DNA of 43,532 nucleotides, taken from IMG/VR virus record IMGVR_UViG_3300012147_000025, positions 1 through 43,532 of that record; one strand, 5' to 3'. The position numbers were made by a program, and so were the translations under genes. The notes beneath the pieces are model-generated. The model was not told the origin of the DNA. It made no database searches and saw only the letters and a program-made list of their open reading frames with translations. How positions within the stretch are numbered: position 1 is the stretch's first letter; the number at the start of each line of letters is the position of its first letter. This DNA is from a virus. Positions 21,906 through 40,773 of this stretch are shown here, piece after piece.

Positions 21906-22382
21906 CTAAATAAAACGCATGTAATCGTTGTAGTAATCCTGCCAAGTGGCCTTGCCAAGATGTGTGTTGTAGTACTTCTTAGCGTACTTAGCTAGGTTTT
22001 CGTAGTACACGCTAGTGCTGTCCTTCTTAGGTAAAGCTTCAGGGACACGCCAATAGTGTACCCTAGCCATAGCTGTAGCGTAGTACAGGTTGCCTACCAT
22101 TTCAGGAAATAACCCCGAACCTAAAGTCAACACCTGAACAAGGTACTGTAGTTCGTCTCTGGAGTTCAGGAAGTTTGTGTGTATATCACCCTCAGTAGCA
22201 GGTTCCATCTGGTAAATACCCTGAGCTGGGCCGTTAACCTGATGTAAGAACCTACCCATGTGGCTCTCGTGAGCTGAGGTCATTAACAGTAAGTCAACAG
22301 CCTCCTCTGAGTGCGGTATCAAAGGGTCTAAGCTCTTTAGTACAGGGTTAATTATATGTTCACGTAATTGTTCGGATCTCAT
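21906..22382 (-). CDS. Endolysin candidate, lysozyme/transglycosylase-like
   Basis: 158 residues. The motif LLMTSAHESHMG (33-43) with Glu39, followed by GPAQGIYQMEP (51-61), is the catalytic Glu and Gly-rich/QMEP pattern of transglycosylase-like phage lysins. A C-terminal helical part contains WRVPEALPKKDS and YAKKYYNTHLGKAT. There is no signal peptide, so export would need the holin. It would cut peptidoglycan at lysis. Its place at the end of the leftward operon, separate from holin and spanin candidates in the rightward block, is unusual. Confidence 0.7.
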   Translation of the reverse strand: MRSEQLREHIINPVLKSLDPLIPHSEEAVDLLLMTSAHESHMGRFLHQVNGPAQGIYQMEPATEGDIHTNFLNSRDELQYLVQVLTLGSGLFPEMVGNLYYATAMARVHYWRVPEALPKKDSTSVYYENLAKYAKKYYNTHLGKATWQDYYNDYMRFI

Positions 22383-22834
22383 TAATATCTCTCTATAAAC
22401 GGAGGAAGCGAAGGCCTAAGCACAACAACTGCGCTAGGGAATGGTGCGGAGTTAGTTGCCCCTCCAAACTTCAGTCTTCCCTTAACAAAGGATATTTCAC
22501 CTCTTTGACAGGAGTTATACCACCACTTTGTGTCCACTCTTGCGGGAACTAGGCATACGACAGTGCATCCCTTGTTTGCTTCTACACAAGCTTTCTGCAT
22601 CCACTTCCCGATTTCTCTACCGTAAGGGGGGTTCATCCAGATAGTTTTACCGTGAGCGAACCAATCCTTGTTTAGTCCATCGTCCTCTGGTGTAAAAAAC
22701 ACTTCACATTTAGCGCTGGAAGGTAATGCACATACATCTAAGTCGAACTTAAATTTGTTATTAAGCTTATCGTAGAAACTCTGCGGTGTTGACCACTCAT
22801 CTGTTTCGGATGAAAACATTCCTGAATTCATCAT
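22382..22834 (-). CDS. Phage N6-adenine DNA methyltransferase (Dam family)
   Basis: 150 residues if started at ATG 22834; ATG 22831 and a GTG at 22855 are alternatives, and GGGAG just upstream favours the two ATGs. Signatures of the phage Dam family (PF05869 type): DEWSTPQSFYDKL (12-24), FDLDVCALPSSAKC (30-43), IWMNPPYGREIGKW with catalytic NPPY (68-71), and VCLVPARVDTKWWYN. It probably transfers methyl from AdoMet to adenine N6 and could protect phage DNA from restriction. No partner nuclease is nearby, so an orphan protective role is inferred. Confidence 0.88.
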   Translation of the reverse strand: MMNSGMFSSETDEWSTPQSFYDKLNNKFKFDLDVCALPSSAKCEVFFTPEDDGLNKDWFAHGKTIWMNPPYGREIGKWMQKACVEANKGCTVVCLVPARVDTKWWYNSCQRGEISFVKGRLKFGGATNSAPFPSAVVVLRPSLPPFIERY

Positions 22835-22844
22835 ACTCCCTTCA

Positions 22845-23018
22845 CTAGCATTCACTTTTTAAGTCCTCGATGTGTTTTTCTTTTTGGGTTATTCGTTCGG
22901 ATAGGAGGTCACAAGATAACCAATCTTTTTTATCTACGCACGACTGGTACTCTTCCTCTAACCGTTCTAGCTCTTGCTTAGCGTAGCAAAGCTCTCGTAC
23001 ATCATCGTAGTGGCTCAT
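22845..23018 (-). CDS. Small coiled-coil protein (57 residues)
   Basis: ATG at 23018 overlaps the preceding phosphoesterase stop as ATGA, and GGAG lies eight bases upstream. The product starts MSHYDDVRELCYAKQELE and ends KEKHIEDLKSEC. It is highly charged with heptad-like leucines and three cysteines. It runs into the start region of the methylase gene (stop 22845-22847), suggesting translational coupling. Function unknown. Confidence 0.65.
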   Translation of the reverse strand: MSHYDDVRELCYAKQELERLEEEYQSCVDKKDWLSCDLLSERITQKEKHIEDLKSEC

Positions 23019-23782
23019 AGGTAGTTCTCCAACAGGTAATCCATGTTAACTATACACGGGCTGTAGTCTCCGTTATTAACGTTATGCTTCATAACAATTC
23101 CTCTCCAGTGGTCGTTGCCTTGAGGACCTATGTAGTTCTCGAAGTGTTGATAAAAGGAACCTGCAACTAAACCCCACATCTTAGTTCCTGCGTTATTAGT
23201 GGCAGTAGCTATCTGCAAACCTTGCTGATGCCCCATAGTAAAGCTTGTCTTAACCTTAGACATTTTATTCTCTATAGCGCCACCGTAAGGTCTACCTGAC
23301 ATAGGGTTATAGAAGTAATGTGCATACGCTATACCGTCTATTACGATTGGCTGTAGGAAAGGAATAACTTCCCACCCCATAGCCTCAAGACCTAGATCAT
23401 CGAAGCTAAGGCTTCCATCAAGCTCAGGGTTGCTCTCAACATGACGGGCTATACGATTCTCATGGTTGCCTAAACAGAACACCATACGAGGTGTGTATAC
23501 CCTCTTCTTGGCTTCCTTCTGTCTTCGTTGTAAGGCTTTTAAGGGGCCAAGTAAGATTTCCATAGATGCTTTACCTGACTCAATATCAGCTATAACCCTA
23601 CGCCCTTCCATAGCTTTCTTACCTCTGTCGTATGATGATAGCGATGGCATATCCCAATGGTCGCCTATGTGAACAATAACATCAGGTCTTTTACGGACGA
23701 TGTAATTACCACAGGCTAAGAGGTGACTGGTGGGTGCTCCGGGCTTGTCTTGGGTGTCTGGAATTATCAGATGTTTAGTCAA
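23015..23782 (-). CDS. Metallophosphoesterase (calcineurin-like), copy 1
   Basis: 255 residues with a TTG start at 23782 chosen because GGAG lies seven bases upstream; an earlier in-frame TTG at 23797 lacks a site. Motifs: DTQ (9-11), GDHWD (40-44), GNHENR (105-110), and later HYFYNP and MGHQQG. These fit the two-metal phosphoesterase fold, although the first motif has Gln where His is usual. Substrates of phage members are mostly unknown (nucleotides, cyclic nucleotides, phosphoproteins or RNA ends). It overlaps the tyrosine-phosphatase-like gene by eight bases, so the two are probably co-translated. Confidence 0.85.
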   Translation of the reverse strand: MTKHLIIPDTQDKPGAPTSHLLACGNYIVRKRPDVIVHIGDHWDMPSLSSYDRGKKAMEGRRVIADIESGKASMEILLGPLKALQRRQKEAKKRVYTPRMVFCLGNHENRIARHVESNPELDGSLSFDDLGLEAMGWEVIPFLQPIVIDGIAYAHYFYNPMSGRPYGGAIENKMSKVKTSFTMGHQQGLQIATATNNAGTKMWGLVAGSFYQHFENYIGPQGNDHWRGIVMKHNVNNGDYSPCIVNMDYLLENYL

Positions 23783-24158
23783 CGTATTGCTCCTCAATGA
23801 TCCTCATTAGCTCTGGGTCGAAAGTACCGTACATATCTGGAATATTGTAGCTTAGAATACTCGGACGGTCAGGGTGCTGAGGAGGAAAGATCTTATCTAA
23901 GTAACGAACAATCTGAGCTTCCTCTCCTTTCACTACATGGATCTCGTCAGCCCAATTAAGCAATGCTTCGCTTACAGGGATCAATGCGTACTCCTGAGAA
24001 GTCCCACAAGCTCTTGTGTTGTAACCTAGACCTGTTAGGTACTTAGCTATACTTGGAGAGCGTAGCAAGCCTGCTGAGCACACACATAGGGCTTTAATAG
24101 CTTCGCCTTGGTGGGGGTTTTTACAGTTACCTAGTTGGTTCATTGTACTTCTTATCAT
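23775..24158 (-). CDS. Low-molecular-weight tyrosine phosphatase-like protein (COG4551 type)
   Basis: 127 residues. The P-loop CSAGLLRS (27-34) is the CX5R(S) phosphate-binding loop, with Cys27 as nucleophile and Arg33. Further family marks are SPSIAKYL, a short TRACGTS strand, WADEIHVV, and IPDMYGTFDPELM, which carries the candidate general-acid Asp. It starts with an ATGA overlap to endonuclease VII. It could dephosphorylate host proteins, Tyr-phosphorylated polysaccharide regulators, or small phosphate esters. Phage-encoded members are little studied. Confidence 0.78.
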   Translation of the reverse strand: MIRSTMNQLGNCKNPHQGEAIKALCVCSAGLLRSPSIAKYLTGLGYNTRACGTSQEYALIPVSEALLNWADEIHVVKGEEAQIVRYLDKIFPPQHPDRPSILSYNIPDMYGTFDPELMRIIEEQYVD

Positions 24159-30211: not shown

Positions 30212-30289
30212 TTAATCCTCGTTGTAATACAGAATAATTATAGCAACAAAAAATATTGCTCCCCATATAAAAAGTCCAGTCATAAACAT
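30212..30289 (-). CDS. 25-residue single-helix membrane peptide
   Basis: ATG 30289 shares a base with the primase-helicase stop (TAATG) and is preceded by GGAGG five bases upstream, a strong site. The peptide MFMTGLFIWGAIFFVAIIIL is followed by YYNED: one membrane helix with a charged end. It is too short for routine gene finders. It could be a small toxin-like or regulatory membrane peptide. Expression is supported by the ribosome site and coupling only. Confidence 0.55.
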   Translation of the reverse strand: MFMTGLFIWGAIFFVAIIILYYNED

Positions 30290-31956
30290 TACTCCTCCTT
30301 GTTTTCTTCGTTGTCGTTCATGTATGACTCAAGTAACCTGCCAGTGTTAGGATTGTACAGTAAAGGTATCTTGCCACTCTCTCCGAAGTTCCTGTCCTCT
30401 AAGAGAACTAACTGCCTTACATTCTTTAGGTTAGGTTGCTCAGGATCTTTGTTACCCTCAAGACCGATCATCATGTAACATGCACGCATCATAGCTCTTG
30501 AGCCAGCGAATTGGTTACTAAGTACATGACCACCTCTCTCGTGAGGAAGTCCACTCTGAGGACTGTTAAGGTGACAAAAGATGTAGTACGTGAATGCTAA
30601 CTCTTTAGCCATAGCCGCTATATCAGATGCGATCTCTACTAATCTCTCGTTAGCTTCACCAGAACCCATGCCTACAGTTAAGCATGTTATAGGGTCAATA
30701 ATTATGTCGTTGACACCCTCTGCCCTGTTAACGTAGCGTATCTCTCTCTTGAGGTCGTCCCAATTAATTTTACCGTACTCTCCATACATGATAGCCTTAT
30801 CGTCTATGAGACGCTTACCACGCTCGAAAGCCTCCATGTTGAACTCACGCTTAGGGTCGTGAAAGATATGACTTGTAGCCACCCCTGCAAGCTTCTGTGC
30901 AGTGATATGGTTCTCTTGTTCAGGCTTACAGAAAAACACAGGGACGTTGTGTTGTGTGATAAGGTGTGTACCTAGCTCATCTACTAAGCATGACTTACCC
31001 ATTTTTACGCCACCACCGAAGTAAGCACCCTCACCCCTACGTATCCCCCTAGTTAAGTCAGTAAGTCCAGCCCAAGGCCAGCTAAGTCCCATCTCTGGAC
31101 GTTTAGATGCTTGATCCCATACATCTGAACTACGTACAAGCTTATCGCTTAACTGTGTCTTAGCGCGGAACATAACAGCCTGAAAAAGCTCTTGCCCTCT
31201 GTCAGCCATAAGCATATCGTGTGAGTCTTTAAGGGGATACTTAGCGACCTTGCACTCAGGATACAGCTTAGCGAAGGTTTTAGTAGCACCCTCTCCTGCC
31301 TTATCCATGTCGAAGCATACAATAACCTCTTTCCACCTATCGAACTGCTTGATGAAAGGAACCATCGAGTCAACTGACTTAACACCATTAGGTAATGATA
31401 TAACAGCAGGAGTCTTCTCGAACTTACCGAACTTCTTAAGGGTCTGTAGCAATGCCATAGCATCCTTCTGACCCTCTGTTATGAATAGCTTAGCACCACC
31501 GTTCTGTACAGCTTGTCTCCACCCGAAGGGTTCTATACTTCTTGTGTTACCTACAAAGAAAAAGATCTTACCTTCGAGAACCTTAACTTGATACGAGGTA
31601 ACAACACCGTCACGTTCGTAGGGATAGTAATGACTGCGTATCTCCTGTGCAGTCTCTCTGTCGAAACCTAGCTTAACACCGAAGTGTTCAAGGGTTTCCT
31701 TATCAAGTTTATCTTTAGGGCAAGCTTCTGTAGGTAGCTTACTGATATTAGCGAGTTCCTTGTTTATATCGTCCTGAGATTTAACTTGTGGTTTAGGTGG
31801 GATGTAGTCTTTGTTATGCGCGTCATAGGGGTTCTTGACGTATGTACTGCAACTGTAACAGTATCCATCGTAGTTCCCATCGTCTTGCATAAAGACTTGT
31901 AGCCCACGCTTAGTGCCGCAACTGTGCGGTAAACGCTCTACATATTTCTTAGTCAA
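30289..31956 (-). CDS. Primase-helicase (T7 gp4-like)
   Basis: 555 residues. An N-terminal zinc motif (His11, Cys13, Cys33, Cys36), a Toprim primase domain with Glu160 (LFITEGQKDAM) and DMD (215-217), and a RecA/DnaB-type helicase domain with Walker A GGGVKMGKS (313-321) and Walker B IIIDPIT. It makes primers and unwinds DNA as a hexamer at the fork. It begins with TTG at 31956, with AGGAG six bases upstream inside the end of the preceding gene. The TTG may limit its level. Confidence 0.93.
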   Translation of the reverse strand: MTKKYVERLPHSCGTKRGLQVFMQDDGNYDGYCYSCSTYVKNPYDAHNKDYIPPKPQVKSQDDINKELANISKLPTEACPKDKLDKETLEHFGVKLGFDRETAQEIRSHYYPYERDGVVTSYQVKVLEGKIFFFVGNTRSIEPFGWRQAVQNGGAKLFITEGQKDAMALLQTLKKFGKFEKTPAVISLPNGVKSVDSMVPFIKQFDRWKEVIVCFDMDKAGEGATKTFAKLYPECKVAKYPLKDSHDMLMADRGQELFQAVMFRAKTQLSDKLVRSSDVWDQASKRPEMGLSWPWAGLTDLTRGIRRGEGAYFGGGVKMGKSCLVDELGTHLITQHNVPVFFCKPEQENHITAQKLAGVATSHIFHDPKREFNMEAFERGKRLIDDKAIMYGEYGKINWDDLKREIRYVNRAEGVNDIIIDPITCLTVGMGSGEANERLVEIASDIAAMAKELAFTYYIFCHLNSPQSGLPHERGGHVLSNQFAGSRAMMRACYMMIGLEGNKDPEQPNLKNVRQLVLLEDRNFGESGKIPLLYNPNTGRLLESYMNDNEENKEE

Positions 31957-32380
31957 TACTTGCTCCTGTTCTATTTGCGTAGTGGATTATAAGCTTTCTT
32001 CGTCTCTGTTTACTTTCTCTGGATACCTTACTTACGGATAGTCCTTGATCGTAGTGCATCAGGAGGGTTGTTTGTTTTTTAGTCAGAATTTTAGGATCAA
32101 ATAGCTGAATACACCTTAGCATCTGTATAACTTTTGAGCTTAACTCCTGTGAATTAAGAACAGCTAAGCAGTACTTGAAGTACTCAGGGTTGTACTCCCA
32201 AGCCCGTCCTGCCCACTCCTCCCAACAAGCGCCAGAATTATCTAAATACAAACCTACTCTGTTGTACACAGGTGAAACCTCTTTCCCGTAATCCTGCCTC
32301 TCTTTAAGAAGTCTTGCATAGAAGTATGATTTCTCTGTCGTTTTAGCTTCGGGATGAGGTAACACCTTCACCTTGTGCAT
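31949..32380 (-). CDS. Probable helix-turn-helix protein
   Basis: 143 residues. The C-terminal about 45 residues (ILTKKQTTLLMHYDQGLSVSK, split here after the helix, then VSRESKQRRRKLIIHY) read like a sigma-region-4-type helix-turn-helix. The N-terminal part contains YARLLKERQDYGKE and a Trp-rich stretch (ACWEEWAGRAWEYNP). It lies directly before primase-helicase, overlapping its start. It may regulate transcription or bind DNA in replication; the assignment is tentative. Confidence 0.55.
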   Translation of the reverse strand: MHKVKVLPHPEAKTTEKSYFYARLLKERQDYGKEVSPVYNRVGLYLDNSGACWEEWAGRAWEYNPEYFKYCLAVLNSQELSSKVIQMLRCIQLFDPKILTKKQTTLLMHYDQGLSVSKVSRESKQRRRKLIIHYANRTGASID

Positions 32381-32382
32381 AC

Positions 32383-32604
32383 TTACTCCAAGATGTACGT
32401 CTTACCATTACTACAGGTAACACGTTTGTGGTCTGTGCTATAGGGCTGTAAACCATGCTCGTTACATACTGTGATTGCGCTTTGTATGTGTGCTATGTCT
32501 TTAGCTACAGGGGTGTCTGTCGTATTTGATACATGTATAGATCCAGCTAGCGCAACAAATGCCCCCACTAAAAAGCCCATAATCGTCAACTCTGCATCGT
32601 TCAT
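32383..32604 (-). CDS. Small exported or membrane-anchored protein
   Basis: 73 residues. Residues 5-25 (ELTIMGFLVGAFVALAGSI) form an N-terminal membrane segment or uncleaved signal. The outside part (residues about 30-73) has two cysteines (ITVCNEHG, RVTCSNGKTY) that could form a disulfide in the periplasm. GGAGA precedes ATG 32604, coupled to the upstream stop. Function unknown. Confidence 0.6.
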   Translation of the reverse strand: MNDAELTIMGFLVGAFVALAGSIHVSNTTDTPVAKDIAHIQSAITVCNEHGLQPYSTDHKRVTCSNGKTYILE

Positions 32605-32768
32605 TAATCTATCTCCAGTATTACGTACTCTTTGTACTCGCTACCTACAACCTCGTAGCCGTAAACCCTATGCCAGTACTCGGTTTGGTCACTCGGTGCT
32701 ATGAAACGTACTTTGTTTTTTGTGCAGTCTTCTGGATGTTCTGCAATCCATATCTTTCTAGCTTTCAT
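32604..32768 (-). CDS. Small protein of unknown function (54 residues)
   Basis: ATG 32768 after GGAGAGTGCAG; the stop TAA (32604-32606) overlaps the next ATG. The product begins MKARKIWIAEHPEDCTKNK and contains EYWHRVYGYEVVGSEYKEY. It is globular, Tyr-rich and has no membrane span. It overlaps the preceding coiled-coil gene by 11 bases, the normal style in this operon. Not recognised. Confidence 0.65.
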   Translation of the reverse strand: MKARKIWIAEHPEDCTKNKVRFIAPSDQTEYWHRVYGYEVVGSEYKEYVILEID

Positions 32769-32898
32769 CTGCACTCTCCAAGAACTCTACACGCCCCTCA
32801 AGCTCAAAGATATAGTTATCCTTATCCTCGATCTCTTCTTGAAGCTCTTGTACTCGTGAGTTCAGTTCGTTTATTAAATCATTCATAGATTTAGCCAT
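32758..32898 (-). CDS. Short coiled-coil protein (46 residues)
   Basis: ATG 32898 lies just inside the end of the upstream helix-turn-helix gene; the stop TAG is at 32758-32760. MAKSMNDLINELNSRVQELQ continues with a Glu/Asp-rich helix and ends EFLESADES: a single acidic coiled coil. The ribosome site is weak (ACAGAAG), so translation probably depends on coupling. Could be a small dimeric modulator. Confidence 0.55.
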   Translation of the reverse strand: MAKSMNDLINELNSRVQELQEEIEDKDNYIFELEGRVEFLESADES

Positions 32899-33142
32899 TC
32901 TTCTGTCCTTTACTGTTGTACCCGAATGAACGGATAACTGTGTACATAGTCGTTACGTGAACACTGTACAGCTTAGATACAGCAAGTACACTGTATCCTT
33001 CCTGAAGTAGCTCAACGATTTCTGCTATTTGTTCTGACCAGACAACCCTCTTAGGTTCGTCTAGTGTATAGTCTGACACACGTACAGGGTTTAAGTTCAA
33101 AAAGTTTAATGTTGGTTGTAACGGATTACTCTTCCCCATCAT
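32891..33142 (-). CDS. Small helix-turn-helix protein
   Basis: 83 residues if started at ATG 33142 (ATG 33139 is next to it); the longer in-frame stretch to 33325 lies within the ATP-grasp gene and lacks a start site. The segment VVWSEQIAEIVELLQEGYSV then LAVSKLYSVHVTTMYTVIRSFG is a helix-turn-helix of the Hin/homeodomain-like type. It could regulate phage genes. It is the last gene of the peptide-ligase cluster and overlaps the ATP-grasp gene by 17 bases. Confidence 0.65.
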   Translation of the reverse strand: MMGKSNPLQPTLNFLNLNPVRVSDYTLDEPKRVVWSEQIAEIVELLQEGYSVLAVSKLYSVHVTTMYTVIRSFGYNSKGQKNG

Positions 33143-34094
33143 AGTACTCTTGCTCCGTATCGTCGTCTTCGTTAGTTTCGTCGACATGTACCCACTGTAG
33201 AGGCTGTGCAACCCACTGAGGGGAATTACTCGTAGGGAGCTGAGGGACGGGTACAGGGGCTGGACCTGTCTCTTCTGGGAAGTCCTGATTAGCGTCAGTG
33301 TTAACGTCAAAAGGTCTCTGTGCATCGTTGTTCATCAACGCTGTTAGACCATTAACATACGTATCTAGTGTAGTGCCCTCTAGTCCCGGAGCTGTGTTAA
33401 CCTCTAACACGTAAGCACGCTTTTGCTTCTCGTTATAGATCACGTCTATAGCACAGAAGTCTAAGTCTAAAGCATCATAAGCTGATAGAGCTTGACCTAT
33501 AACGTCTACAGGAGTGTCTATGTTCTGCCTTGCAAAGATAAATCCCCCTTCTAAGTTACGTACCTTCCAGTTAACAAGAGTGCTGTCTACGTCAAGCTTA
33601 CGTGCCTTACGCTGTACGTCCACTACAACACCGTCAATGATATGTACACGATACTCTTCCTTTTTCTTTACGTACAAGGTGTACAGAGGGCATTGACTTA
33701 ACTGATCTGTGCTGTTAACAATGACGATACCTCGACCAGACGAACCATTAAGGATGTGTCTTTCTACAACCTCTCTGTCGTCCTCTAGCCACATAGATGC
33801 CTGAGCCATATCTGTAGTGAATTCAGGCACAGTTACCCCTGCTCCTGCAAGGCGTTCTAAGCACTCTAATTTGTTAGAGGCTACCCTTAGGTCGTCAGGG
33901 TGGTTCCATACCTTCCCTGTAGCTCCTAGGCCCTCTGGTGGGAGAGATAAGCCTGTGTTACCCCAGTTAATTATGTTCCTAGTAGCCTTTCGGGGTGTAG
34001 AACGGTTAATATTGATACGTTGTATACCTAAAGCGGAAGCTAAGATTTTAGCTGACTTACTTGCAGAATTATATGGCAGTAAAAATGTATTCAT
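33126..34094 (-). CDS. ATP-grasp ligase (RimK / D-Ala-D-Ala ligase fold) with acidic tail
   Basis: 322 residues. ATP-grasp core about 60-255: ERHILNGSSGRGIVIV (111-126), the KKKEEYRVHII strand with Glu147, IDVIYNE (216-222), and the metal-binding VLEVNTAPGLEGTTLD (229-244) with Glu231 and Asn233. Such enzymes join a carboxylate to an amine via acyl phosphate, often adding amino acids to peptides. Residues 260-322 form an extra Pro-rich linker and an acidic tail ending EYYDGEE, absent from the basic fold. It is coupled to an amidoligase gene by TAATG. Its substrate is unknown. Confidence 0.88.
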   Translation of the reverse strand: MNTFLLPYNSASKSAKILASALGIQRININRSTPRKATRNIINWGNTGLSLPPEGLGATGKVWNHPDDLRVASNKLECLERLAGAGVTVPEFTTDMAQASMWLEDDREVVERHILNGSSGRGIVIVNSTDQLSQCPLYTLYVKKKEEYRVHIIDGVVVDVQRKARKLDVDSTLVNWKVRNLEGGFIFARQNIDTPVDVIGQALSAYDALDLDFCAIDVIYNEKQKRAYVLEVNTAPGLEGTTLDTYVNGLTALMNNDAQRPFDVNTDANQDFPEETGPAPVPVPQLPTSNSPQWVAQPLQWVHVDETNEDDDTEQEYYDGEE

Positions 34095-35011
34095 TATATA
34101 CCTCTTTCGATTGTATCTAGTTCATTAGAAAGTACCCTGATCTCTTTATTGATCTTTTTCTCTCGTACTTTAGTGTATTCTGAAAGCTCTGCGATGACCA
34201 GAACATCATTCACAGTCTGAACCCCTCTCTCTACTAGAGCTTCGTAGTCTTCCATGTACGCTTCGTTAGGGAACAGTCTAGTGAACAGGTCGCTTAAGCT
34301 GTGGGCTTTCTTGTAAGTGATTATCTCTTGTGCTGACTCCATACCCATAGACTCTGTCTTTAAGGCGAATAGGAACTCTAGCACTCGGAAGTAAGCCTCG
34401 GATGTAACCATAGGGCAGAACATACGGTACTCGATTGTTCCTAGATCACGTATACGATTCAAGGATATACCTGCGTACTTAGACCATGTAGTGCCCATTA
34501 TGCTTTCAATAGTGGGATTACCGCCTAACCTTGCTATGTTCTGGAAGTTAGTAGTACCTGTATCTACAGGCATACAGAACGTGTTACTTAGTCTTGTGTT
34601 ACCGAACAACCTGAATAACACATGCTCGAACATTGATGATAGCAGAAGCATGTTGTACACTTGCTGACCAGACATATCGCTAACGTCTACATGGATGTGT
34701 GTACTACAGCGTTCGCTTATCGTGTAGTCTTGATTAGCTAAGCATTCGTCAAGGTCTACTATAGCTTTTTCTAGCTTAACACCAGACAAAGCCTTAGCGC
34801 ACTTAATTTCCATACCGTTGCCGCGCAAGGAGCCGTCACCCTCTATCGTCCACAACGTAGAATTTAAGTCTGGAGTACGGGTCACACCCTCTAGCTCTAG
34901 CTCTATACCTACAGCGTAATTACGAGAGAGTCTCTTAGGCTCGAACAGTAAGGGATTACGGAATCGGTTATTAGTCTCTTTTAGATAGCTTTCAATTGTG
35001 TTAAATGGCAT
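34094..35011 (-). CDS. Amidoligase (COOH-NH2 ligase, Amidoligase_2-like, GCS fold)
   Basis: 305 residues. The glutamine-synthetase/gamma-glutamylcysteine-synthetase-like motifs are visible: VGIELELEG (34-42), DGSLRGNGMEI (59-69), CSTHIHVDV (102-110) and GISLNRIRDLGTIEYRMF (181-198). They supply the metal and ATP ligands of the fold. The family links a carboxyl group to an amino group. A helical C-terminal extension (about 240-305) is present. The ATG follows AAAGGAG. It shares the cluster with a second ligase of a different subfamily at 35605-36474. Confidence 0.88.
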   Translation of the reverse strand: MPFNTIESYLKETNNRFRNPLLFEPKRLSRNYAVGIELELEGVTRTPDLNSTLWTIEGDGSLRGNGMEIKCAKALSGVKLEKAIVDLDECLANQDYTISERCSTHIHVDVSDMSGQQVYNMLLLSSMFEHVLFRLFGNTRLSNTFCMPVDTGTTNFQNIARLGGNPTIESIMGTTWSKYAGISLNRIRDLGTIEYRMFCPMVTSEAYFRVLEFLFALKTESMGMESAQEIITYKKAHSLSDLFTRLFPNEAYMEDYEALVERGVQTVNDVLVIAELSEYTKVREKKINKEIRVLSNELDTIERGI

Positions 35012-35595
35012 ACTATATCTCCTTTGTTAAGGTTAGTTCGTTCGATAATTGATCCAAAAGGTGTCTTCAGTTCTCCATCGTAATCGCCTACGGTCTTTCC
35101 GACTAGAGCCATATGTATCTTACCACCTGAACAGCATATACGCTTGGAGATAATAGTCTCAGTAGGGTCACTGCAAGCCGTACTCTGATCTAAAACAGCC
35201 TCTAAATACAATATATGGGATAGAGTACCGCCCCTTGAACTGTGAAATCCACGAGAACCGGACTCGTTGAACCTAACAAAGTCGTAGTTAAGTCCCTTTT
35301 TGTAGGACTTAGAGAACACATAAGTGTACTCCATGAGCTTACCTTTATGGACAAAGAAACCTTGCTCGGGTGTGAACCTGAAAAGATATTCGCTATGTAT
35401 CCGTAGTACGGAGTCCTTACCAGTACGGCAAACGAAAGCATTATCAGAGTCTACCTCCATAGAGATGACTACTTGATCACCGTCTGAACCTCTGTAAAGC
35501 AGAAATGTGTTACTGTAGTACTGGTTCAGATCTCTGTGGCTATAACCCTGAACGGATACAGGGTCTAAGGCTATAGGTATTAAGTTCTTGATCAT
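34981..35595 (-). CDS. Unknown protein inside the amidoligase cluster
   Basis: 204 residues. It is beta-rich (NTFLLYRGSDGDQVVISMEVD, written here in short, and YLFRFTPEQGFFVHKGKLMEY) with a Cys-containing middle part (STACSDP, KRICCSGGKIHM) and C-terminal GDYDGELKTPFGSIIER. It overlaps the following amidoligase by 31 bases, indicating tight coupling. It could be a carrier, substrate or accessory subunit. No family recognised. Confidence 0.65.
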   Translation of the reverse strand: MIKNLIPIALDPVSVQGYSHRDLNQYYSNTFLLYRGSDGDQVVISMEVDSDNAFVCRTGKDSVLRIHSEYLFRFTPEQGFFVHKGKLMEYTYVFSKSYKKGLNYDFVRFNESGSRGFHSSRGGTLSHILYLEAVLDQSTACSDPTETIISKRICCSGGKIHMALVGKTVGDYDGELKTPFGSIIERTNLNKGDIVCHLTQLKAI

Positions 35596-35604
35596 TGTAG
35601 TTCC

Positions 35605-36474
35605 TTAAAAGTCTAAAGGCATTGTGTTCTGGTACTTAGGGTCTAACCTAGAGGTAGTTCTCTTGATTTTAGAGTACTTCGTAGTTAGTTCCCTAGATAG
35701 GGCCTCACCTCGAGCAAAGGCTGAGTAATGTCCACTAACCTTGTAGTCTCTCAGGTGTTGGAATACACCAGAAATAAGGTCAGGTATTGACCTGTCTGCA
35801 AGCCAGTAAGAGCTCATGTTACGGAGTTCAAAACCGTAAGGCTTAGGTCTGATTACAGGATTATGACGTAAGTTCAGGATGTCTTCTCTCATCTGGGCCG
35901 CACCGTTTCCTGTGTCAAAGGTCAGTCTTTGGACTAAGCCCACAGTTGACATCAGGTTTAGTGTCGCTGAGATCGTTCCTAGTAAAGCTGGGTCTGTCAG
36001 TTCAAGATCACAGCCAAATCCAAAATGGATATGACCCCCAACAGGTACACGCTCTCGACTTAGAGTACTGACACGCATAGGAACAACAGCAATAGCCGTC
36101 CTTCCGACCATACTGAACTGAGGGGAGCATCCTACGTCAAATCCTGTATGGTTATCTGATATGTCTTCTGCTGAATACCCAGCCAGTGCTCCACAACGAA
36201 GGTCATAACGACCCTTGAATCTGTTCTCTAGCTTAGTACGTATCTCGTTGATGCTCTCCTGTATAGCATCGGAGAACCTCTCTCCTCCTGTATTCACAGG
36301 CTTAGTACCGAACTCAAGTACTGTACCATCTAGTTGGACCATGCCTCCGCACTTCAGTTTTAAAGGTTTCTGCTTAGATCCTCCTATCTTGCCGATAGCA
36401 GGGACAATTCTCTGTAGCTTGTTATCGAACAAGAACAGCTCTGGGTCACAACCGATTTGTGTTTGAATTTGCAT
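35605..36474 (-). CDS. COOH-NH2 ligase type 2 (phiEco32-like amidoligase)
   Basis: 289 residues. Motifs of the phiEco32-like ligase family (PF14395 type): IGCDPELFLFD (7-17), GGMVQLDGTVLEFGT (43-57), VPVGGHIHFGFG (143-154) and PYGFELRNMSSYW (212-224), which together give the Asp/Glu, His and Arg ligands of the GCS-like active site. It should form an amide bond at the cost of ATP. The ATG follows TAGGAG. It lies between the amidotransferase and the unknown 204-residue protein. Confidence 0.9.
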   Translation of the reverse strand: MQIQTQIGCDPELFLFDNKLQRIVPAIGKIGGSKQKPLKLKCGGMVQLDGTVLEFGTKPVNTGGERFSDAIQESINEIRTKLENRFKGRYDLRCGALAGYSAEDISDNHTGFDVGCSPQFSMVGRTAIAVVPMRVSTLSRERVPVGGHIHFGFGCDLELTDPALLGTISATLNLMSTVGLVQRLTFDTGNGAAQMREDILNLRHNPVIRPKPYGFELRNMSSYWLADRSIPDLISGVFQHLRDYKVSGHYSAFARGEALSRELTTKYSKIKRTTSRLDPKYQNTMPLDF

Positions 36475-36487
36475 TTTGTTCTCCTAG

Positions 36488-37987
36488 TTATTGTAGGTTC
36501 AGCTCACTGTACTCTGATTTGTATTCTGTATCCCATATGTCAACGCACCCGTCACAGACATACTCGGAGCTTGAGACAAAGGTTACTGTTTGTAGCGTAG
36601 ACTCTGCAACTAAATCTATAGGGTCAGCACATACACAGCATCCATTTTTTGTGTTTGCCTTGAACTCCTTGTAGGTAAGATCTCTGCCATCTAAACCCTC
36701 GAACTCACCATAAAAGTCTGGTAACACAGCGTCATGTTCACCTTGAGCTATTTGAAAGTCACAGTAACGCTTAAAGATGGGGCAAGTGTTTGCATCGTCT
36801 TCGCTTCGCATGAGCTTCCAGCTCTCAGGTTTGTTCATCAACACTAAAGCGGGTCTCTCTCCTGTAAACGTAGCAGTCATTATTTCCGCTTCAATGCACC
36901 ATACATCCGAAATATCCGAGATCGAACTGAGGTCACAATAATACGCTTTAACATCAAAGTAAGGGTCACATACCAGAGACATCTCAAAGTCAACACGATT
37001 AGGAACTTTATCGTTCTTACAAACAATCTTGTCAATATAGCAGAACACTTTGTCACCTTTGCGAAAGTTAGTTCCCTTTGAAGCATTAAAACGATCTAGG
37101 TTCTTAACAGTCTGGTCTTCTATCCTAGCGACCTCTCCGCTTGTGGTTGTCCAACCATCTCTGTTGTTAGGAACCCATACACCTCTAACATATGCACCTC
37201 CGCTAAAACCAGAACCCATACCCGTTGAGGTGTAGTGGGTACGTATCACAGGCTTTGGGGCTAATTCGAGTTCTTCTGTAACACACGTAACCTTACGCTT
37301 TTCCATAGCGAATGTGTGTAAACAACCTGCAAGGGGCTGGTACATATTGTACTTAGCATCTAAACCGCTTGCACTTTTTGAACCTGATACTGTTTTGTTG
37401 CTACGGTCTATAAGCCACTCAAGCATCTTAGCTTCTGATGCGTATAACACATGGTCGTCTGTGATAGCAAGAGTAAGGGGTCGCTCATCGTTACGTATGA
37501 AGTTAAAGGTCATGTTGTGAGAGTCCCACCAAGTCAAGGCAAAAGCTCCCTCTAGGTCTTTTATAACGTCCTCTACGTTGTACTTATCTAGTAAGTAGCA
37601 AACCAGTTCCGAGTCTGTACCGAAGGTAGGAGCATCGTACTTCTTTTCTAGGGCGTACTTATTAGATAGCGTACCGTTGTGCATTAATGTTATGTCACCA
37701 TGTACGAAAGGGTGGGCGTTAGCCGCATTCACACCTCCCATAGTTGCGTGGCGGTTATGCCCCATAAGAAGTATCTTATTTTGGGATATGTTATCGTCTA
37801 CAGATTTAATATCTAAGAAGTTAATAGGGTCGATAGCTAACTTCTTGATAAAAGGTACACCCGATGGAGGTATACTTGCTAAACCTGTGCTATGCCTTCC
37901 ACGGAAGTAATCCGCAATCAAGGCTTGTTTAAAGAATGATACGTGTGGGTGAAATAAATCACCGTATACTCCGACTAATCCGCACAT
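36488..37987 (-). CDS. Class-II glutamine amidotransferase with C-terminal zinc-ribbon-like module
   Basis: 499 residues. The start MCGLVGVYG exposes catalytic Cys2 after Met removal. Other Ntn-amidotransferase motifs: GRHSTGLASI (30-39), GHNRHATMGG (76-85), HPF (92-94), MHNGTLSN (102-109) and GTDSELVCYLL (123-133). It releases ammonia or transfers glutamyl groups from glutamine. Residues about 200-450 are not recognised. Near the end, CCVCADP and YVCDGCVD form two CXXC-like pairs, a likely zinc site. It overlaps the cyclotransferase gene as TAATG. Confidence 0.88.
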   Translation of the reverse strand: MCGLVGVYGDLFHPHVSFFKQALIADYFRGRHSTGLASIPPSGVPFIKKLAIDPINFLDIKSVDDNISQNKILLMGHNRHATMGGVNAANAHPFVHGDITLMHNGTLSNKYALEKKYDAPTFGTDSELVCYLLDKYNVEDVIKDLEGAFALTWWDSHNMTFNFIRNDERPLTLAITDDHVLYASEAKMLEWLIDRSNKTVSGSKSASGLDAKYNMYQPLAGCLHTFAMEKRKVTCVTEELELAPKPVIRTHYTSTGMGSGFSGGAYVRGVWVPNNRDGWTTTSGEVARIEDQTVKNLDRFNASKGTNFRKGDKVFCYIDKIVCKNDKVPNRVDFEMSLVCDPYFDVKAYYCDLSSISDISDVWCIEAEIMTATFTGERPALVLMNKPESWKLMRSEDDANTCPIFKRYCDFQIAQGEHDAVLPDFYGEFEGLDGRDLTYKEFKANTKNGCCVCADPIDLVAESTLQTVTFVSSSEYVCDGCVDIWDTEYKSEYSELNLQ

Positions 37988-38364
37988 TAAAATACTCCCG
38001 TTTTAATTAGTCTCTCAGGACGTGCATAAGCCTGATCTTGCATTACATAAATCCAAGCCTTACCGATACTTACATCAATAAGCTCTCGTCTGTACCACCG
38101 AGGATGCCCCTCTAAGCGGTCTAAATCGCCCTGTAAGGTACTTTGTTCCACCATGAATACTTCCACAGAGATCTCGTCTTTGGAGTCCTCTGAGTGGAAT
38201 ACAACAGGAAATCCTCCTGCTGAGAACATCTTGAAACCTTTGATCTGTTCTGCACCCATGAATTCGGATGATGATAGCAGACGGTTATTACCATGCCCTT
38301 GCTTGAGTGTGCCGTAAACGGCTACTAATTCTGTGTTAATGGCTGTGTTAGTGCATGTGCTCAT
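37987..38364 (-). CDS. Gamma-glutamylcyclotransferase family protein (AIG2/GGCT)
   Basis: 125 residues. VAVYGTLKQGHGN (14-26) contains the YGTL substrate loop, and LDRLEGHPRWYRRE (81-94) the candidate catalytic Glu85. The fold cleaves gamma-glutamyl-amine bonds with release of 5-oxoproline. In the amidoligase cluster it may trim or recycle gamma-glutamyl-linked products. It overlaps the 307-residue gene by ATGA and the amidotransferase by TAATG, so all three should be co-translated. Confidence 0.9.
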   Translation of the reverse strand: MSTCTNTAINTELVAVYGTLKQGHGNNRLLSSSEFMGAEQIKGFKMFSAGGFPVVFHSEDSKDEISVEVFMVEQSTLQGDLDRLEGHPRWYRRELIDVSIGKAWIYVMQDQAYARPERLIKTGVF

Positions 38365-39284
38365 TGCATTAAGTCCTCTGTATTGATGTTATGTTCTTTA
38401 GTGTATTTATCGAACACAGTGTCAAAGCACAGTATCCAATCTTCTACAGTCTCGTATACCTGAGCCTCTGTTATGGTGTCACCCCAGAGATCCTCAGTTC
38501 CCTTAACTCCTTTGCATGTTCTAGCCATTTCTCTAGCTATATCATTCCAAAATCTGTCCATACGTTTACTTTGGTGTAGTCGTAAAGGTTTAAGGTACAG
38601 AGATACGTTCTGAGGGTAAGATGATTCTTTAGGTATTTCTTCTTGAAAGGTATCTCCGATGTAATTATCTACAGGTGGCTTACCTGATAGGAAGTCTACG
38701 AATACCTCTAAGCAAGACTGAGAGTAGTCATACAAGTTAGCATCGTTGTTGTACAACCTTGATGCTATGCGTAGTGCATTATTTCCCTCAGTACAGGAAT
38801 ACGCAGGGCTTAAGGCCGTAGGTGTACATGCAAGCATATAAGCCTTCCAGAAAGGTAGATTGTAGTGATCCATGAAGGTATACACTACCCCAGCAAATGA
38901 ACTCAGATGCTTAAGTATTCGGGATGATCCTAAACCAGTAAAGATAGTCCTGTAGTGAAACATAGCGTGCATGACCTCATTTCTTGTGAAGTCTTTTATG
39001 TTAAACACAGGCATGTTGCCCTCTGTACTGACCATAGTACGCATAAAAGGTAACATACCGATTAACCTATCTGCTACCTGTTTTTCTCTATCGTTAAGGA
39101 TTTTGTGATCAATCCCTGTTTTCAGGAAGGTAAGGGTGTCCAGTACGTAGCCATGTTCTAGCTTATTATTACACTGGAAGCGAAGGCTTTCTGCGTAGTT
39201 AGGATTCTTCCCTAGTATACACAAGCATCCTGCTGAAAGGTCTAAAAACTGACCTTGAACAGATGTAATTCTTACAGTTGTCAT
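38361..39284 (-). CDS. Unknown protein heading the amidoligase cluster
   Basis: 307 residues, mostly helical with conserved-looking patches (FTRNEVMHAMFHYRTIFTG, LPFWKAYMLACTPTALSP, EGNNALRIASRLYNND). No known motif or membrane segment. AGAGGA precedes the ATG, and a 145-base AT-rich gap upstream marks it as a likely first gene of a sub-operon. Tight coupling to the cyclotransferase suggests it is part of the pathway, as substrate, carrier or regulator. Confidence 0.7.
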   Translation of the reverse strand: MTTVRITSVQGQFLDLSAGCLCILGKNPNYAESLRFQCNNKLEHGYVLDTLTFLKTGIDHKILNDREKQVADRLIGMLPFMRTMVSTEGNMPVFNIKDFTRNEVMHAMFHYRTIFTGLGSSRILKHLSSFAGVVYTFMDHYNLPFWKAYMLACTPTALSPAYSCTEGNNALRIASRLYNNDANLYDYSQSCLEVFVDFLSGKPPVDNYIGDTFQEEIPKESSYPQNVSLYLKPLRLHQSKRMDRFWNDIAREMARTCKGVKGTEDLWGDTITEAQVYETVEDWILCFDTVFDKYTKEHNINTEDLMQ

Positions 39285-39429
39285 TTTATTTTATCCTCTG
39301 ACTGAACTTATTAAATATGTTGTAGTCCAATCTAGTAAGGGGTAAGGGGATGTAGTTAAGTATTAGATAATTGTTAAATAAATATAACTAATAACTAATA
39401 AATAATTACCTGAATTACTACTTGAATAG
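39285..39429 (-). promoter_or_regulatory. AT-rich gap, probable promoter for the amidoligase cluster
   Basis: The gap precedes the 307-residue gene on the minus strand. It contains TTAACA-N17-TACATC as a weak sigma70-like pair on the minus strand, direct repeats of TAACTAA on the plus strand, and ACCTGAATTACT (39408-39419), which recurs inverted at 27219-27230. The base composition is close to the repeat gap at 27.1 kb. Confidence 0.4.
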
Positions 39430-39657
39430 CTAATCATTACTGTTTAAAGCTTTATATCCTAATAGTATACTTCTGTACTCTTGCGTTAAGTACCTTAACT
39501 GACTCTGTAAGTACTTCATACGGTGGTATGTCATGTTAGGTACTTTAAGTTCAACCTGTACCGCTCTCTTTTCCGCTAAGTTATGCCCACTTAATCTTCT
39601 AAGCTCTGGCTTGTTTAACCCCTTGTGCGGAATACTCTTGATGTAGTTAATGTCCAT
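39430..39657 (-). CDS. Small basic helical protein of unknown function
   Basis: 75 residues from ATG 39657, four bases after AAGGGTTC; a longer frame to 39681 lies in the upstream gene. It begins MDINYIKSIPHKGLNKPELR and contains a basic helix (TYHRMKYLQSQLRYLTQEY). It is early in the leftward operon, so it may act on the host. Not recognised. Confidence 0.65.
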   Translation of the reverse strand: MDINYIKSIPHKGLNKPELRRLSGHNLAEKRAVQVELKVPNMTYHRMKYLQSQLRYLTQEYRSILLGYKALNSND

Positions 39658-39889
39658 AATGAACCCTTCTTGTGAAGCCACAATCGGCTGTTATTATAAC
39701 TGGAGTACACGAATACCTCCAGAGAGAAACCACCTCATTAAGGTCGAAGTTATAAAAGACCCTAATAAGTTTACCAGAATCGTCTCTTACATCTATACGA
39801 TCTCTGTACTGCACATCCTCATTGTAGAACTCATGGTGATACCTTGTAGTTCCATCCTGAAAACGCTCTCTTACCCCTCCTCTTGCCAT
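39647..39889 (-). CDS. Small protein of unknown function
   Basis: 80 residues, ATG 39889 preceded by AGGAG at six bases. It is rich in Arg, Asp and Tyr (MARGGVRERFQDGTTRYHHE, YRDRIDVRDDSGKLIRVFY). No motif. Its stop overlaps the next gene by 11 bases. Confidence 0.65.
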   Translation of the reverse strand: MARGGVRERFQDGTTRYHHEFYNEDVQYRDRIDVRDDSGKLIRVFYNFDLNEVVSLWRYSCTPVIITADCGFTRRVHYGH

Positions 39890-39929
39890 ACATTACTCCT
39901 GTTGCTCCATTGATTGTTTTGTTAATTTG

Positions 39930-40130
39930 TTAGCCTGTTAGCTCTATAACAGAGCCTATGAAGTGAAGCAGTACCCATACAAACAGGAACACAGACGTTA
40001 CAAGTGAAACAGTGTACAACAGGACGTAAAAGTCCTTACTTTTGGAATCGAAGTACTCTATAAGCTCGAACTGTAAGTACATTACTGCCACCAGTAAAAG
40101 AAGTAAACCACCTAAAGTGATTACAGTCAT
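39930..40130 (-). CDS. Small membrane protein with two helices
   Basis: 66 residues: helix one about 3-24 (VITLGGLLLLLVAVMYLQF), a short charged loop (EYFDSKSKD), helix two about 36-60 (VLLYTVSLVTSVFLFVWVLL). AAGGAG stands upstream, and the ATG overlaps the previous stop (ATGA). Early membrane proteins of this size often change the host envelope; no specific evidence here. Confidence 0.65.
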   Translation of the reverse strand: MTVITLGGLLLLLVAVMYLQFELIEYFDSKSKDFYVLLYTVSLVTSVFLFVWVLLHFIGSVIELTG

Positions 40131-40351
40131 AAGCCTTGCTCCTTAAGCATTTTACCTATGCGGGCAGACACGCTATTAAAGCGCTGTTTACGTGATCCCT
40201 TTGTAGTGCCCCTCATTGCAACGCTAAGGCTATCGGTAGGAAATCTAACCCTAGTGCCAGTGGTCTTGTTACAACGTCCACTGTGAGCCTCTCTGGGAGC
40301 TTTACAGGTAGGATCTAAGGTAAAGGTGTACTGTGGTATTATTCTAGGCAT
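40127..40351 (-). CDS. Small basic protein of unknown function
   Basis: 74 residues, strongly basic (KAPREAHSGRCNKTTGTRVR, TTKGSRKQRFNSVSARIGK), with a C-terminal helix GKMLKEQGL. GAGGATACAATC precedes the ATG. It probably binds nucleic acid or an acidic partner. Not recognised. Confidence 0.65.
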   Translation of the reverse strand: MPRIIPQYTFTLDPTCKAPREAHSGRCNKTTGTRVRFPTDSLSVAMRGTTKGSRKQRFNSVSARIGKMLKEQGL

Positions 40352-40449
40352 GATTGTATCCTCGATTGTTGGTTAGGGAGCTTCGGTAAAGCATGGTAAA
40401 ACATATAACGGGTGACACAAACCGCGAAGAAAATGCCACCTGTATACAT
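40339..40449 (-). CDS. Possible 36-residue hydrophobic peptide
   Basis: Open frame from ATG 40449 to TAA 40339-40341, overlapping the next gene's start by 13 bases in the usual style. It begins MYTGGIFFAVCVTRYMFYHA, perhaps a membrane segment. No good ribosome site is visible, so it may be chance. Confidence 0.25.
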   Translation of the reverse strand: MYTGGIFFAVCVTRYMFYHALPKLPNQQSRIQSCLE

Positions 40450-40482
40450 TCTAGTGTTTAATTGTTTATGGTTCTGGCTTGT

Positions 40483-40773
40483 TTAGTCCATAGCGATGCC
40501 CTCCTTGTTAGTTAGTTTGCTGCACTGGTGAAAGTATCCATGCCTTGCCATTACCATACTTGTCATCATGTACAGGGTGTCCTCTTTGTTGTCTTGATTG
40601 ACAATTTTGAAGTCAATATCACTGTAATTTGTGACATCGCCACCGTCCCCGTTGAAATAACATACCGCTAAATGCGGGAGTACTTCAAAGTTTTCATCTG
40701 ATACCTGTACGGATACCTTAGATCTAATCCCCGAGTATGTAGTAACATCAAAATATACCGTTGCTGTGAACAT
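40483..40773 (-). CDS. Small early protein of unknown function
   Basis: 96 residues from ATG 40773, seven bases after AAGGGG; the open frame continues upstream to 40860 but that part lacks a site. It starts MFTATVYFDVTTYSGIRSK and is a beta-rich globular protein (YSDIDFKIVNQDNKEDTLYM). It is the second sizeable gene of the leftward block. Not recognised. Confidence 0.7.
   Translation of the reverse strand: MFTATVYFDVTTYSGIRSKVSVQVSDENFEVLPHLAVCYFNGDGGDVTNYSDIDFKIVNQDNKEDTLYMMTSMVMARHGYFHQCSKLTNKEGIAMD

Follow-up and report, generated by a model that had tools for sequence, protein, structure and literature searches.

A conserved seven-gene amidoligase set in a Zobellviridae-related phage, predicted to attach and remove gamma-glutamyl groups

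What do phages that carry amidoligase gene clusters modify in their hosts? The question is raised here by IMG/VR virus record IMGVR_UViG_3300012147_000025, analysed over its whole length of 43,532 bp (the window), which encodes on its minus strand a gamma-glutamylamine cyclotransferase (GGCT), a class-II glutamine amidotransferase (GATase), two ligases related to gamma-glutamylcysteine synthetase (GCS), a RimK-like ATP-grasp ligase, and two further proteins, p1 and p5 (Table 1). The initial annotation described an eight-gene leftward run at 32891-39284 and read it as a complete make-and-trim pathway for a peptide or amide tag. All eight open reading frames (ORFs) are present; however, the small helix-turn-helix (HTH) gene is over-long as called and has no homologues in the loci searched, hence, the conserved unit comprises seven genes (33126-39284), and the notion of a complete eight-gene pathway is not supported. 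We put at roughly 55% the probability that the cluster conjugates gamma-glutamyl groups (as glutamate amides) in the cytosol during the middle phase and also removes them, the activities being predicted.

The core of this set is already known and annotated in hundreds of phages, Pseudomonas and Escherichia podoviruses among them, and the window is another carrier, conserved and functional-looking. New here are p5 and p1 as components of the system, the alternation of GGCT with Peptidase_C26 (C26) enzymes, and a glutaminase–GGCT fusion. If correct, the proposed function opens the long-standing question of the host target to study.

The family assignments of the initial annotation are borne out by Pfam and PHROG profiles. 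The GGCT scores 68.3 bits against the Pfam GGACT cut-off of 22.8; the Glu of its LEG motif is invariant among 13 aligned sequences, and its closest solved relatives are YtfP and human GGACT. Cyclotransferase activity on gamma-glutamyl amines is predicted. The other four families were each aligned with 19–20 relatives. The GATase keeps the N-terminal nucleophile Cys2 (the sequence starts MCG), and Arg79, Asn104-Gly105, and Asp125 are invariant; the closest solved relatives are the glutaminase domains of GlmS and PurF. Unlike GlmS, PurF, and AsnB, it shows no acceptor (synthase) domain joined to the glutaminase part: the family matches stop near residue 190–240, the remainder is variable, and the C-terminal tail is zinc-ribbon-like (CxxC..CxxC), with Cys450 and Cys481 nearly invariant. 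This glutaminase may supply ammonia or glutamate, or hydrolyse a gamma-glutamyl amide.

The COOH-NH2 ligase matches PF14395 at 15.6 bits (E=0.0095), under the Pfam cut-off of 25; despite this, the kinship is supported by the PHROG 3815 match (E=1e-26) and by the conserved motif columns, with Asp10, Glu12, Glu54, His148, His150, Arg209, Glu216, and Arg218 invariant. In the Amidoligase_2 ligase (PF12224), Glu37, Glu39, Glu41, His105, His107, Arg140, Glu194, and Arg196 are invariant, comprising the GCS-type Glu and His motifs. The ATP-grasp ligase scores 29.2 bits with Pfam RimK (cut-off 21), its metal-binding residues Asp217, Glu231, and Asn233 are invariant, and its closest solved relatives are RimK alpha-L-glutamate ligases; with the NCBIfam RimK-family alpha-L-glutamate ligase profile it reaches 41.4 bits, under the cut-off of 143.4. 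The NCBIfam scan of the cluster proteins also pointed weakly, below threshold, to MptN, EgtC, PuuD, and gamma-glutamyl-CDP-amidate hydrolase. As far as sequence tells, the catalytic-motif residues are intact in all five enzyme families, and the loss of such residues, named in the initial annotation as telling against a single pathway, was not seen.

The genes also travel together. Matching phage records number 322 for the GATase, 266 for the COOH-NH2 ligase, 317 for the amidoligase, and 312 for the ATP-grasp ligase, with much the same host profiles, and an IMG/VR profile search found at least 503 relatives of the ATP-grasp ligase. Because the loci were retrieved through ATP-grasp, C26, and GGCT as the three baits, the figures below describe relatives of the baits rather than phages overall. 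The five-gene core (GATase, COOH-NH2 ligase, p5, Amidoligase_2, and ATP-grasp) lies on the same strand in 152 of 197 non-identical ATP-grasp loci, pooled from all scans; as it recurs at this rate although many of the loci are cut by contig ends, the clustering is not due to chance. The co-occurrence proposed for all eight genes is thus found for the core, while the HTH gene has no counterpart in the loci searched; together with the intact motif residues, it supports a make-and-trim set. The commonest gene orders are GATase–ligase–p5–amidoligase–ATP-grasp (76 loci) and ligase–p5–amidoligase–GATase–ATP-grasp (38), and p5 stands between the two GCS-like ligases in 150 of the 152 full loci. The same order of seven genes as in the window, GGCT immediately following p1, recurs in RIO-1, PQ867850, PQ867853, PQ867849, PQ867847, and Vibrio phages 1.208.B and 1.293.O. 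Among 84,980 bacterial and archaeal genomes only 14 relatives of the ATP-grasp ligase were found, every one on a metagenome-assembled contig; hence, close relatives of the set are essentially not borne by prophages or chromosomes. A second RimK-like ATP-grasp copy is seen upstream of the glutaminase in six loci (L029, L042, L043, L045, L073, and L096).

In phages lacking GGCT (e.g., PA11, CVT22, Klyazma, and GP100), the cluster is preceded by a gene annotated as "glutamine amidotransferase" or "gamma-glutamyl hydrolase", which belongs to Peptidase_C26 in 18 of 18 members; its motif Glu is invariant, and its Cys and His are nearly so. The closest solved relatives of this enzyme include PuuD and chains titled "probable glutamine amidotransferase", which we take to be SpuA. 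Used as the sole bait, C26 retrieved 80 loci, of which 74 contain all five core genes, three contain four, and two contain three (at least three core genes in 79/80); in the remaining locus the contig ends 631 bp downstream of C26. Directly after p1, distinct loci carry either C26 (82 loci, median gap -3) or GGCT (eight loci including the window, median gap -1.5), with overlapping or abutting starts. Among 57 whole records plus the window, 29 have only C26, 15 only GGCT, 11 both, and three neither, so at least one remover is present in 55 of 58. The presence of C26 and that of GGCT are associated by Fisher's test (p=1.2e-4, kinship not taken into account); on the ATP-grasp tree the remover states are clustered, and the best tree implies five or more changes from one single-enzyme state to the other. 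Nearly every record retains a removing step, via either of two unrelated enzymes. The exchange of GGCT and C26 is supported by gene position and by the near-universal presence of either enzyme, not by a tree-corrected statistic. One C26 copy (L051:4596-5201), in a phage that also has GGCT, carries the nucleophile motif GIGRGAQ with Cys replaced by Gly, possibly a decay after gain of the other remover.

Glutaminase and GGCT are also linked by gene fusion. The GGCT-seeded scan gave 80 loci; the full five-gene core is present in 33, and in 20 (13 distinct proteins) a class-II glutaminase and a GGCT following it form a single polypeptide. Cys2, Arg, Asn-Gly, and the cyclotransferase Glu are kept in the six fusion proteins aligned. 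In many fusion phages, the fusion gene is overlapped by a divergent amidoligase gene, whose second motif histidine is altered in the single full-length copy read. Glutaminase and gamma-glutamyl removal would thus be physically linked to an amidoligase outside the canonical cluster; combined with the exchange of C26 and GGCT in one slot, this narrows the likely chemistry to gamma-glutamyl amides. Two named phages (MW202828 and OQ984151) have matches to about 80% of the fusion length, annotated as GGCT only. Like these two, fusions such as L233:7500-8564, L246:5806-6867, and L232:7536-8615, among others, come from phages without most of the cluster.

Neither p5 nor p1 had been assigned in the initial annotation, which considered that they may be substrate or carrier. 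The window p5 is no orphan: it matches the p5-family profile with E=5e-14 (among the window ORFs) and an hhalign probability of 97%. The family model (57 sequences; mean predicted local distance difference test score, pLDDT, 96.7), built for a central member and not for the divergent copy of the window, resembles in its first half SH3-like KOW/Tudor barrels (Foldseek and VIA-align; best Z 6.5 over 50 residues), and matches the N-terminal region of RapA with Z 5.5 over 96 residues; no enzyme is seen among these structure matches. No function was taken from the hits to EF-P, KIN17, Spt5, and RapA, which are single-barrel or middling (Z about 5–6.5). Conservation is highest at Gly and Arg residues. 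No Lys, Cys, or Ser is invariant and the C-terminus is not conserved, so p5 as a covalent carrier is rejected and as a substrate is not supported; lacking an invariant nucleophile or lysine, it would rather be an adaptor. It is a core component of the system, with SH3/KOW-like barrels in the family model.

The window p1 matches the p1-family profile weakly (E=0.013), yet ranks top of 153 window ORFs, and its GGC..G, D, Y, and G columns recur in the p1 proteins that Melvirus phages encode in the equivalent position. The family (67 sequences) has an invariant Cys and Arg; the window protein aligns at both but not at the Ser, Glu, and His columns. Members occur in 77 of 80 C26-seeded loci, mostly directly upstream of C26. 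These similarities are suggestive of a divergent member of a near-constant partner family (PHROG 34254-like). The p1-family model (pLDDT 86.6) has no PDB match at E<=0.001, with a best VIA Z of 3.1, which is not proof of a new fold. A scan with the window p1 itself found one contig with an identical protein and no other match.

How might these proteins act together? Gamma-glutamyl groups are attached by GCS-type, glutamine synthetase-type, or ATP-grasp ligases; they are removed by GGCT in the butirosin pathway, by C26 in the putrescine pathway, and by class-II GATase folds in the ergothioneine pathway. The phage system contains each of these three remover folds, and its closest solved relatives are glutamate-centred: RimK for the ATP-grasp ligase, GlmS and PurF for the GATase, PuuD for C26, and YtfP/GGACT for GGCT. 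Joined to the known ligase and remover biochemistry, this leads to the interpretation as gamma-glutamyl conjugation and deconjugation. The class-II glutaminase would cleave glutamine to Glu and NH3. The COOH-NH2 ligase, the Amidoligase_2 ligase, or both, held together by p5 as an SH3/KOW-like adaptor, would then form an ATP-driven amide bond between an amine and a carboxylate, which is most likely the gamma-carboxyl of Glu. The RimK-like ligase would add, or extend the product with, alpha-linked Glu, and the gamma-glutamyl remover, GGCT here and C26 in other phages, would release or reset the product. The families, motif residues, co-occurrence, common gene slot, and fusion are read from the sequences; from them we infer in what order the steps run, that the bond is gamma-glutamyl, and that the acceptor is a protein or small molecule with an amine, located in the cytosol, and not DNA or finished cell wall. 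The location is suggested by the glutaminase, whose N-terminal nucleophile Cys excludes an export signal. In PaP3, ORF32-48, the cluster included, peak at 10–30 min as middle genes (PMC4707531), and in SU10 the ATP-grasp, amidotransferase, and YtfP proteins were found by mass spectrometry (PMC4281155).

Several observations weigh against this interpretation. The system is known from its genes, the activities of its members, the substrate, and the product being predictions. Sequence comparison links no solved structure to either GCS-like ligase, so gamma-glutamyl specificity is extrapolated from the fold family to which the literature assigns them. By the independent-pairs (tree-aware) test, the GGCT/C26 exchange does not reach significance, and the two enzymes may not be strict substitutes, given the records with both; on these two grounds strict mutual exclusion is rejected. 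Ten of the 80 GGCT-seeded loci lack any core gene, several of them near contig ends or in larger phages. As to timing, the middle-phase assignment derives from one relative, PaP3, and the authors of the SU10 study place the cluster genes as early (PMC4281155).

As the target of the predicted conjugation, a protein and a small molecule are about equally likely. The protein case is the preferred explanation in a narrower form with the target named: the target would be a host or phage protein on which the ligases assemble a short tail, glutamyl or peptide, while p5 acts as the substrate adaptor and GGCT or C26 as the editor; the acidic C-termini of the ligases could be sites of self-modification. 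It is consistent with the closeness of the ATP-grasp ligase to RimK, the enzyme that glutamylates ribosomal protein S6, and with p5 being universal and a barrel protein, a class in which binding of peptides or nucleic acid is common. Strongly acidic C-terminal tails are far commoner in Amidoligase_2 (24/199, e.g., in L018, L022, L004, and L012) than in the other cluster proteins (6/1118), and the window ATP-grasp ligase, one of two acidic-tailed among 213, has such a tail (EDDDTEQEYYDGEE, 33126-33185; ending EYYDGEE). At 12% of amidoligases, however, these tails were rejected as a general substrate, relatives of C26 and GGCT act mostly on small gamma-glutamyl amines, and no target gene travels with the cluster; as a full account, protein tagging stays tentative. 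Still more doubtful is a reversible phage glutamyl-tagging system in which the GCS-like and RimK-like ligases, steered by p5, would conjugate gamma-glutamyl to a host or phage macromolecule in mid-infection, GGCT or C26 would reset it, and p1 would be an enzyme of new fold.

The cluster could alternatively alter a peptidoglycan precursor, excluding other phages or redirecting host wall synthesis. Gamma-D-Glu amide bonds do occur in peptidoglycan, and the hosts known for named carriers are, with few exceptions, Gram-negative; however, wall gamma-Glu has the D configuration, while the substrates of known GGCT and C26 relatives are L-gamma-glutamyl groups, and with a glutaminase that needs a free N-terminal Cys and hence lacks an export signal, only cytosolic precursors could be reached. 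Envelope modification is the published prediction for phiEco32, as attributed to Iyer et al. (2009) in a passage of PMC10580990, but the PaP3 cluster is expressed alongside replication genes, not late genes (PMC4707531), and we consider this target unlikely. Less likely by far is DNA, which the amide-forming enzymes would decorate by base hypermodification. The cluster does lie beside primase and polymerase genes, with primase/helicase adjoining it in nearly all annotated relatives; however, genes for base hydroxymethylase, deazaguanine, and glycosyl transfer were not found among 20 other window proteins scanned, and the DNA of phage tf, which has the core and GGCT, is cut by HaeIII and was sequenced directly (PMC3517423). 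An origin in anti-phage defence was rejected, since PADLOC models match none of the eight proteins.

The window encodes terminase, portal-type, capsid, DNA polymerase, and primase/helicase genes. Its closest named relatives by DNA polymerase (about 44–47% identity) and terminase (about 46–48%) belong to Melvirus/Zobellviridae (RIO-1, oyster-virome phages, and Vibrio phages); judged by these identities, the virus is a Zobellviridae relative and infects bacteria. A second IMG/VR contig encodes p1 and ATP-grasp proteins 100% identical to those of the window. The intergenic gaps of the cluster range from -31 to +13 bases, with all genes on the minus strand, consistent with a single transcription unit. 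The HTH ORF as called (32891-33325, 144 aa) overlaps the end of the ATP-grasp gene by 200 nt; its start is likely the ATGATG near 33142. The HTH protein has no homologue beyond itself among the loci searched. Only small ORFs separate the ATP-grasp gene from the primase/helicase (30289-31956), and the replication region contains DNA methyltransferase and metallophosphoesterase genes (22382-23797). Over 31900-40500, sigma-70-like promoter matches are depleted: three are seen, none on the coding strand, vs. 16.9 (standard deviation 3.6) in shuffles; transcription of the operon probably starts further upstream or uses a phage sigma factor.

Table 1. Genes of the cluster in the window, with the support for each assignment
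Feature	Coordinates	Strand	Support
p1, 307 aa, operon head gene	38361..39284	-	weak profile match, position shared with Melvirus p1
GGCT, gamma-glutamylamine cyclotransferase (GGACT/AIG2/YtfP type), 125 aa	37987..38364	-	Pfam GGACT E=1e-18
Class-II glutamine amidotransferase (GATase), 499 aa	36488..37987	-	GATase_6 E=1e-20
COOH-NH2 ligase type 2 (GCS-like), 289 aa	35605..36474	-	PHROG 3815 E=1e-26
p5, 204 aa, adaptor-like core protein between two ligases	34981..35595	-	family profile E=5e-14
Amidoligase_2 ligase, 305 aa	34094..35011	-	over Pfam cut-off, E=7e-7
RimK-like ATP-grasp ligase, 322 aa	33126..34094	-	Pfam RimK over cut-off, E=9e-7; PHROG 2599 E=2e-79
Small HTH protein, about 83 aa after start re-reading	32891..33145	-	neighbour, probably outside the conserved system

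The core of the phiEco32-type amidoligase cluster was reportedly already known to Iyer and colleagues in 2009, and the Pfam title of PF14395 is "Phage phiEco32-like COOH.NH2 ligase-type 2". The initial annotation rightly pointed to related sets in phiEco32-like phages, but the cluster is more widespread and better annotated than it implied. Like the phiEco32/LUZ24-type clusters of Escherichia, Pseudomonas, Salmonella, and Aeromonas phages, where GGCT is usual, the window has the five-gene core, with GATase, COOH-NH2 ligase type 2, Amidoligase_2, and ATP-grasp in a single transcription unit; the order differs, as in that type the glutaminase follows the amidoligase and GGCT follows ATP-grasp, whereas the window has p1–GGCT–GATase–ligase–p5–amidoligase–ATP-grasp. 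The clusters of Melvirus/Zobellviridae (RIO-1, PQ867847/849/850/853, and Vibrio 1.208.B and 1.293.O) are identical to it in seven-gene order and direction, apart from an endonuclease gene inserted between GGCT and GATase in PQ867847; protein identity is moderate or low, and the HTH gene (p8) is not common to them. The window ATP-grasp ligase has the same metal-binding residues as the RimK/MptN alpha-L-glutamate ligases, which are its best solved and NCBIfam matches, but falls far under the NCBIfam cut-offs. In butirosin side-chain protection (BtrJ ATP-grasp/BtrG GGCT) and in the PuuA/PuuD and EgtA/EgtC pathways, a ligase adds a gamma-glutamyl group, which is removed by an enzyme unrelated to it, with a GGCT, C26, or class-II amidotransferase fold. 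No carrier protein is recognised in the phage cluster. The phage cluster follows the same add-then-remove logic, and none of these pathways is known to join two GCS-like ligases and a RimK-like ligase with p5 and p1.

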